Positions 39,963-42,365 of a DNA stretch of 42,365 bases are shown one piece after another (positions within the stretch are counted from its first letter, which is position 1; each line of letters opens with the position of its first letter). Source of the stretch: Acidimicrobiales bacterium (GTDB taxonomy: Bacteria; Actinomycetota; Acidimicrobiia; Acidimicrobiales; Ilumatobacteraceae); contig JAURJB010000008.1 in the NCBI GenBank assembly GCA_030832455.1, positions 1 to 42,365 of the forward strand, in the 5' to 3' direction. The notes beneath the pieces were generated by a model, which had not been told where the DNA came from, did not search any database, and worked only from the letters and a program-made list of their open reading frames with translations. The translations under genes and the position numbers were made by a program.

Positions 39963-40595
39963 TTATACCCGATTCAACTGCTCGACTCTTGAGCACAATG
40001 CAACGACGTCGACTTGGTCGTGACTCACGATCAAGGTAGGTACACCTAACATGCTCAAACGAGAGGCAATAACCGAACGCACACCATTGCGTGATTCTTC
40101 GTCAATTGCCGACAGCGGCTCATCAAGCAGGACCACGCTTGGATTGCCAATTAATGCGCGCACAATAGCCACACGCTGACTTTGCCCGCCCGAGAGCGTT
40201 GATGACAACTGATATGCGACATCGGCCACACCAAACTGTTCAAGTAGCTCGAGCGCCAACGTTTTTGCCTCGCCACGCTTCATACCTCGCACCACCAACG
40301 GGAGCGCAGCATTACCTACAGCGCTCAAAAACGGCATCAGTGCGTGATCCTGGAACACCATTCCAATACTTCGCAACTCGGGCAATACAAAAAGACGTTT
40401 TGCAGGTTGATCAACCATCACACCATTGAGGCTCAGCTGTCCAGATCCAAGAGCCGACAAGCCTGCGATCGTGCGCAGTAGCGATGTCTTACCGGTTCCG
40501 TTCTGTCCGACCACACCGACGATCTCGTTACCAATTTCGAGATCGAAGCGACGGCTGAACTCGCCAGCCACGACGGTTCCATGCAGCGAAATCAT
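39963..40595 (-). CDS. modC: Molybdate ABC transporter ATP-binding protein
   Basis: A 210-aa ABC ATPase. Walker A is VVGQNGTGKTSLL (about 29-41), the Q-loop is MVFQDHALMPF, the signature is LSGGQSQRVAIVRAL, and Walker B is SVVLLDEPLSAIDEES with an H-loop IVSHDQVDV. It powers ModB. It ends directly after the ATPase core and has no C-terminal TOBE/MOP regulatory domain, which typical ModC (about 350 aa) carries. The ATG overlaps the modB stop as ATGA. Confidence 0.88.
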   Translation of the reverse strand: MISLHGTVVAGEFSRRFDLEIGNEIVGVVGQNGTGKTSLLRTIAGLSALGSGQLSLNGVMVDQPAKRLFVLPELRSIGMVFQDHALMPFLSAVGNAALPLVVRGMKRGEAKTLALELLEQFGVADVAYQLSSTLSGGQSQRVAIVRALIGNPSVVLLDEPLSAIDEESRNGVRSVIASRLSMLGVPTLIVSHDQVDVVALCSRVEQLNRV

Positions 40596-41392
40596 CGCGC
40601 GAAACCGCCAATCCACTTGTCACGCAAACCAATCAGCACTGCAACACACACTGCAACTAACAGAAAGCTCAACGCATACGCCCCCTCAGGGTTGCTCTCT
40701 AACATGGTGTACACAGCAAGCGGCGTAGTTTGGGTGCGCCCTTCAATATTTCCTGCAAACGTGATCGTTGCACCAAACTCACCAAGTGCTCTGGCCCACG
40801 CAAGCATCAAGCCGGCAACAAGAGATGGCCGAAGCATTGGCAGCACAACACTTCTAAACCGAGCGAGATCAGATGCACCCATTACCGCAGCGGCTTCTTC
40901 GTATCGCGTGTTGATTGAACGAAGTCCACCTTCGAGTGCAAGCACGAGGAAAGGCATTGCCACAAATGCCTCGGCAATGATCACGCCCCAAATGGAATAG
41001 GTCAATTGAATGCCAAAGACTGAATCGAGCACCCCACCGAGCAAACCATTGGTCTTTCCGTATACGCCAAGCAGTGCCACTCCACCAACAACGGGCGGGA
41101 TGACCATTGGTAGCAACACCAGCGCACGCACAACCCGCCGCAGTCGAAATTGCATCCGTGCAAGACACCACGCCAGAGGAAGACCAACGATCAGCGCAAG
41201 CAACGTTGCACTTAATGAGGCATACAGCGAAATTCGCAGCGCTTCACGGCTTGATGACTGTGTCAACTGATCCCACAGTGTCAACCATGAAACACGTCGC
41301 AACAATCCCACAATCGGTAGCGCCAGAAATGCAACACCCAAGGCAGCGCCCACTTGCACAAAACGTGGGGTACGTGCTCCAACGGTTGACAT
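40592..41392 (-). CDS. modB: Molybdate ABC transporter permease
   Basis: A 266-aa permease with about six TM helices and the cytoplasmic coupling motif EEAAAVMGASDLARFRSVVL followed by PMLRPSLVAGLMLAWARALGEFGATITFAG, which is typical of ModB/CysT. It forms the channel that takes molybdate from ModA. It is directly downstream of modA (adjacent stop and start) and overlaps modC. Sulfate or tungstate permeases are close relatives; the ModA partner supports molybdate. Confidence 0.92.
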   Translation of the reverse strand: MSTVGARTPRFVQVGAALGVAFLALPIVGLLRRVSWLTLWDQLTQSSSREALRISLYASLSATLLALIVGLPLAWCLARMQFRLRRVVRALVLLPMVIPPVVGGVALLGVYGKTNGLLGGVLDSVFGIQLTYSIWGVIIAEAFVAMPFLVLALEGGLRSINTRYEEAAAVMGASDLARFRSVVLPMLRPSLVAGLMLAWARALGEFGATITFAGNIEGRTQTTPLAVYTMLESNPEGAYALSFLLVAVCVAVLIGLRDKWIGGFAR

Positions 41393-42169
41393 TTACGGAG
41401 CCTGAAAACCGTAGGACGAAAGAATTCGCTTACCCTGTGATGACAGCACAAAGGCAACAAACCTCTCCGCTACCACACCATGCTTGCTAGCACGAATGAC
41501 ACCAATGCCATACGCGGCCTTGATGTTTGTTGCTCCTGGAATAGCGATAACGCGCACCCTTTTCTTTGCTGACAACGCATCTGTTGCATAGACAATTCCT
41601 GCATCAGCGTCACCGTTTGCCACAGCGTTAAGCGATGCGGTCGCATCGACTCCACGCGTAATTTTAGATTCTGCAATCATGACGCTAGATCGCGAAAGCA
41701 ATTGTCTTGCATATATTCCACAGGGTACGGTTTTTGCACACAGCGAAACAGTTTTGGCTTTATTGAGATCTGTGATTGAGGTGATACCCAATGGGTTTCC
41801 TGGTTTCACAATAAGTTGCATTGCGTTGTGGGCAAATACCTTTGGCAAGCCCACCACAGCTCTTTTAGCCCGCAATCTGTAGAAGCTCGTCAGGTCTGCT
41901 GCGGCGAGTACGTCTGACGGTGCACCCGATTGGATCTGATTAACCAAACTTGACGACGATGCAAAGTTGAATCTGATTTTTACCGCTGGGTTCATTTGTT
42001 CAAATTGCTTACCCAACTCTTTATAGGCCACAGCCAGCGAAGCTGCAGCCGACACCGTGATCGTGGTTTTCTTTGCCCCAACCCCACGTGCATCAACCTG
42101 AGCGCATGCACCAAGATTCACCGACGCAGCAACAAGCAAGCAGCCTGACAATCGGGCTAAAATAGTCAC
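41393..42169 (-). CDS. modA: Molybdate-binding lipoprotein
   Basis: A 258-aa substrate-binding protein. The signal has a hydrophobic stretch and lipobox LGAC (cysteine at about residue 22). The ligand-binding core opens with TITVSAAASLAVAYKELGKQ and continues FNFASSSSLVNQIQSGAPSD, the serine-rich oxyanion-binding motifs of ModA, then VANGDADAGIVYATDA. The GTG at 42169 gives a normal lipoprotein signal and follows a TATAGT hexamer by 6 nt; an upstream ATG at 42220 would add a polar leader. It starts one base away from the divergent PadR-like gene. Confidence 0.9.
   Translation of the reverse strand: MTILARLSGCLLVAASVNLGACAQVDARGVGAKKTTITVSAAASLAVAYKELGKQFEQMNPAVKIRFNFASSSSLVNQIQSGAPSDVLAAADLTSFYRLRAKRAVVGLPKVFAHNAMQLIVKPGNPLGITSITDLNKAKTVSLCAKTVPCGIYARQLLSRSSVMIAESKITRGVDATASLNAVANGDADAGIVYATDALSAKKRVRVIAIPGATNIKAAYGIGVIRASKHGVVAERFVAFVLSSQGKRILSSYGFQAP
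42158..42163 (+). promoter_or_regulatory. -10 hexamer of the PadR-like gene
   Basis: TAAAAT ends 7 nt before GTG 42171 and lies inside the modA coding sequence. Confidence 0.55.
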
Positions 42170-42170
42170 A

Positions 42171-42365
42171 GTGAGACTATACACGCCTTCAGTTCTTGAC
42201 CATATTGTGCTGGCGCTCATCTGTGAGGAACCTCAACATGGTTTTGCAATTTCAAAGGAGCTCGATTCCGATGAATCTCTCGTGGCTGTGATGAATGTCC
42301 GCCGCCCCTTGGTGTACCGATCGATCAACAGTCTTGAAGCAGCAGGGCTGATTAGACCGACCAAA
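42171..42365 (+). CDS. PadR-like transcriptional regulator (cut by window end)
   Basis: The first 65 codons are in the window and no stop is reached. The translation VRLYTPSVLDHIVLALICEE then PQHGFAISKEL, and later RPLVYRSINSLEAAGLIRP, is the winged-helix start of PadR-type regulators: short helix, LALL-like helix, H/YG turn and a recognition helix before the wing. The GTG start has a -10 hexamer TAAAAT 7 nt upstream. It is divergent from modA with start codons one base apart, suggesting it controls modABC and itself; molybdate sensing through a later domain is possible but lies outside the window. Confidence 0.82.
   Translation, partial: MRLYTPSVLDHIVLALICEEPQHGFAISKELDSDESLVAVMNVRRPLVYRSINSLEAAGLIRPTK
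42176..42181 (-). promoter_or_regulatory. -10 hexamer of modABC
   Basis: TATAGT on the minus strand, 6 nt before GTG 42169, inside the PadR-like coding sequence. Confidence 0.6.

Follow-up and report, generated by a model that had tools for sequence, protein, structure and literature searches.

A 19-bp near-perfect palindrome at positions 42162-42180 is, in our judgement, likely to be an operator that overlaps two interlocked leaderless promoters and serves a dedicated PadR repressor of modABC, which would also regulate itself. The window, meaning the whole 42,365-nt stretch of DNA that was analysed, is an entire contig (C108) of a 1.47-Mb MAG, and the features concerned are collected in Table 1. 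In the mechanism that we propose, the regulator gene and modABC would be transcribed divergently from −10 boxes lying in each other's first codons, and the operator, beginning at the 3′ end of one −10 box and reaching the other, would take in the two predicted transcription starts and the two start codons. Because it spans both predicted starts and touches both −10 boxes, a bound regulator dimer would block the two promoters together, so that molybdate uptake and production of the regulator would both be repressed. With the repressor absent the promoters should compete for RNA polymerase, since the polymerase footprints overlap; judged from this geometry, polymerase at either promoter would cover and thus exclude the other. 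That the PadR protein binds the palindrome, and represses by doing so, we infer from sequence, and Mo status would presumably be the signal.

Table 1. Features of the modA/PadR junction and the adjoining operon
Feature	Positions	Strand	Remarks
Palindrome ATAGTCACAGTGAGACTAT, proposed PadR operator	42162-42180		Centre base 42171
−10 box TAAAAT of the regulator gene	42158-42163	+	7 nt before GTG
−10 box TATAGT of modA	42176-42181	-	6 nt before GTG
PadR-family regulator, 5′ 65 codons	42171-42365	+	Gene cut by contig end at 42365
modA, molybdate-binding lipoprotein of ABC transporter	41393-42169	-	GTG start; TIGR01256 131.7 vs cutoff 62.5
modB, molybdate permease	40592-41392	-	TIGR02141 205.9 vs cutoff 182.6
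ABC ATPase in modC position, without TOBE	39963-40616	-	Start uncertain

The two divergent GTG codons, 42171-42173 for the PadR-family gene (+) and 42169-42167 for modA (-), are separated by the single base 42170, and each gene's −10 box lies inside the opposite gene. The initial annotation had described this 24-bp segment (42158-42181), with the starts one base apart and each −10 box within the other gene's first codons; its coordinates are exact when read directly from the sequence, and the boxes are of TANNNT form, 6-7 nt from the starts. Inspection by eye showed no convincing −35 element for either gene. The initial annotation had also named a modA start at 42220 and a later regulator start as possibilities that would overturn its reading. 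Both were checked and are disfavoured, which supports the proposed starts. The 42220 start was rejected as it is not conserved, with a stop codon intervening in two relatives (L009 and L050), and its 17 extra residues would precede the signal peptide with its lipobox (LGAC), leaving no sensible signal peptide. The regulator start has the same position in 13/13 close relatives, as ATG or GTG; beginning instead at the next in-frame GTG, codon 13, would remove part of the first predicted helix (residues 8-19).

Leaderless genes are common in Actinobacteria, and a TANNNT −10 box some 6-8 nt ahead of the start codon is their published signature (PMC3160421). We surveyed 406 kb of this genome for such boxes, using the first start codon of every ORF of at least 150 aa (n = 345). 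The motif was found at a gap of 6 nt in 43 ORFs (control gaps gave about 2), and at gaps of 7, 8 and 9 nt in 12, 10 and 10 ORFs, respectively; Shine-Dalgarno-like motifs in the same set showed a small excess only. Leaderless starts therefore appear common in this genome, given the sharp peak at 6 nt, and both junction genes carry the signature (gap 7 for padR, gap 6 for modA). A second divergent leaderless pair was seen in the same genome (L116:13716-13807, on contig C31 of G000), where the starts of kynureninase (-) and tryptophan 2,3-dioxygenase (+) are separated by 11 bp and each gene has its −10 box at a gap of 6; interlocked leaderless promoters are thus not unique to modA.

The palindrome, which is absent from the initial annotation, is ATAGTCaCAgTGaGACTAT, centred on the G that opens the regulator's GTG, with 8 of 9 base pairs complementary about the one central base and the modA start codon within its left arm. 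Its core, TAGTCNCANTGNGACTA, has a single match without mismatch in the genome, and matches with 2-3 mismatches number 29 vs 63 for the reversed control pattern. A genome-wide regulon was accordingly rejected, there being one perfect site and others at or below the control rate.

Conservation of this site follows the gene pair. Among 150 genomes of the family the exact pattern occurs in 12, once in each and always at a modA/PadR junction (reversed control, 0), and 296 genomes of the class gave eight further matches, seven of them at such junctions. When loci were collected by the regulator protein sequence alone, a site with at most two mismatches was present in 37/38 divergent modA/PadR loci and 0/6 loci lacking a divergent modA, compared with 3/1448 control segments. 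The two collected locus sets overlap (L003 and L044, for example), so their counts are not additive, and many sequences come from related MAGs and do not count as independent events. The site is centred on the regulator start base in 13 loci (L044-L056) and lies 14-92 bp upstream in 26 others. The strict 1-bp interlock with the modA GTG is confined to one subclade, the window and about six closest relatives (L044-L049). In L054-L056 the modA start is shifted about 6 nt downstream, so a two-sided start overlap is not strictly required. Across these loci, the class-wide conserved unit is the operator between the two genes rather than the 1-bp interlock. In this genus and its near relatives the palindrome appears to have become the start codon and codons 2-3 of the regulator, while elsewhere it often lies upstream; this direction of change, an operator moving into start codons, is read from the distribution and not from a tree. 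The nearest named relative is Acidimicrobium sp. BACL17 MAG-120823-bin42 (isolate BACL27, an Acidimicrobiia MAG; L046), with a ModA 96% identical, and further close relatives are labelled Ilumatobacteraceae.

Where the palindrome overlaps coding sequence it appears to constrain codon choice. Of 49 conserved degenerate codons tested in the 14 sequences of the start-overlapping type, only regulator codons 2 (AGA) and 3 (CTA) show no synonymous change, being identical in all 14, and the other 47 all vary; background use of AGA and CTA is 7% each of their codon families. The centre base of the palindrome is A or G only where it belongs to the start codon, and any of A, T, G and C elsewhere. On the other strand, modA codon 4 is TTA in 7/7 loci of the strict form, a codon used for 2.4% of leucines in the PadR genes; the regulator's opposite-strand −10 box demands it. 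The middle bases of that box vary among relatives (TAAAAT, TAATAT, TAACAT, TAGATT). The conservation beyond coding constraint that the initial annotation had called for is thus found, in the invariant codons 2-3 and the retained palindrome. Taken together, the genome-wide TANNNT statistic, the conserved palindrome and the invariant codons give good support to three of its further proposals, namely leaderless starts for the two genes, one regulator site over both, and built-in autoregulation. The possible exclusive switch that it raised would follow from the geometry, but simple joint repression might equally be what matters.

The regulator is truncated in the window and relatives give its full length as about 173 aa. 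A full-length orthologue scores 39.9 bits against PF03551, the PadR N-terminal wHTH (cutoff 27), and the partial copy in the window scores 23.9 bits, below that cutoff. The fold predicted by AlphaFold2 (pLDDT 93) combines a winged helix with C-terminal helices, and its best structural matches are PadR structures 8ioi and 5x11, at modest TM values of 0.5-0.6; matches to this predicted fold include B. subtilis PadR bound to operator DNA. No TOBE domain was found in the full-length orthologue. In other genera of the family, PadR homologues divergent from modA do carry a C-terminal TOBE, assigned by Pfam in L019, L021, L028 and L030 and by sequence likeness in L022, L023 and L027. Since these fusions adjoin a divergent modA, they tie the regulator group to molybdate, and such a fusion could possibly be a PadR-type molybdate sensor. 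The junctions of these loci carry other repeat-like sequences.

The modC-position ATPase scores 136 vs 285 bits against TIGR02142 and is short. It has 217 aa and no TOBE tail such as classical ModC carries, in agreement with the absence of TOBE from the genus. The organism probably uses molybdate, given four PF02738 molybdoenzyme matches in the genome; a molybdate role for the switch itself we infer from gene neighbourhood.

Three other explanations of the junction were weighed. The palindrome might serve another regulator, either ModE-type or a global factor, with the PadR gene merely a neighbour, and ModE does control molybdate operons in other bacteria. We regard this as quite unlikely, for throughout the class the site accompanies a divergent PadR gene and is missing from loci in which PadR and modA are not divergent, a single copy per genome is not what a global factor would have, and TOBE, the molybdate-binding part of classical ModE, was not found in 16 genomes of the genus. 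It is very improbable that there is no regulation at all, and that the palindrome is only a symmetric bidirectional promoter conserved for its two −10 boxes. Those boxes do sit at its outer ends, and promoter symmetry is known to yield divergent transcription, but conservation extends to the central GTCNCANTGNGAC, which does not belong to a −10 box, and the palindrome is still intact at loci where 14-92 bp separate it from the regulator start.

The operator could also be as we propose, with a regulator that activates modA or acts one-sidedly, the tight overlap of starts being a by-product of genome compaction. The small genome speaks for this, as do the kynureninase/tryptophan 2,3-dioxygenase pair, which is unrelated and has its starts 11 bp apart, and the many relatives whose operator lies well before the regulator start. 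We nevertheless hold it unlikely. Neither activation nor one-sided action fits easily with a site that lies over both predicted transcription starts and reaches the two −10 boxes, and operator sequence is kept inside codons despite the cost in rare codons. Repression of both promoters by the PadR protein is the reading we retain.

The sharing of operators by a divergent repressor and its target is classical, with tetR-tetA as the type. The present arrangement is similar in having a repressor and its target transporter divergent, with overlapping promoters, shared operator(s) and autoregulation; it differs in that one palindrome covers both start codons, that both promoters are predicted to be leaderless, and that a PadR-type regulator would govern molybdate import. 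ModE, which combines a LysR-type wHTH with TOBE domains, represses modABC. Here too a winged-helix regulator adjoins the molybdate transporter, with repression putative, but it is PadR-type and without TOBE, though relatives have PadR-TOBE fusions beside modA. Sequence and predicted fold resemble those of known PadR repressors (B. subtilis PadR, 5x11; Rv1176c, 8ioi) whereas the target is different, and the operator sequence presumably differs from theirs as well. The repressor CvkR and cas12k of cyanobacterial CAST systems are divergent, with both mRNAs leaderless and starts 82 nt apart (PMC9938897). The likeness lies in a divergent leaderless pair of small repressor and target with a conserved palindromic motif; CvkR, however, is MerR-type, and in place of its 82 nt we find 1 bp and an operator overlapping coding sequences. 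The EcoRV restriction-modification control region likewise has divergent promoters with overlapping RNA polymerase sites and one autoregulator, but the C protein there has a different DNA-binding domain and logic, and the leaderless C transcript is reported for AhdI rather than for the divergent EcoRV pair (PMC5333194).

Searches of the open-access literature turned up incidental co-mentions of PadR and molybdate genes but no description of a PadR protein that regulates modABC. What appears to be new is the extreme overlap of starts together with a PadR regulator on modABC. We lean, somewhat more cautiously, towards a broader proposal, that Acidimicrobiia control molybdate uptake by an undescribed PadR-type class, comprising the short form and the PadR-TOBE fusion, in place of ModE, and that in one lineage the operator moved into the start codons of the regulator and modA, the 24-bp segment coming to serve as operator, as the two leaderless promoters and as codons for two proteins. 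If true, this would mean that uncultured aquatic actinobacteria have a PadR-type route to molybdate control, and that two genes have promoter, operator and start codons in common in an unusually compact switch. The relatives would also offer a comparative series, from an operator between genes to one inside start codons, testable with short synthetic DNA.

Two variant arrangements were seen among the collected loci. In L065, L067, L074 and L086 the palindrome occurs twice between modA and padR, at a spacing of about 21-34 bp, which suggests tandem operators. A further PadR subgroup with a GEWACLG motif has no ModA match in the fetched stretch (L016, L020, L024, L026 and L031); in some of its loci, such as L016, the upstream ORF ends in what by eye is a TOBE-like tail, suggesting that this PadR is in an operon with modC.
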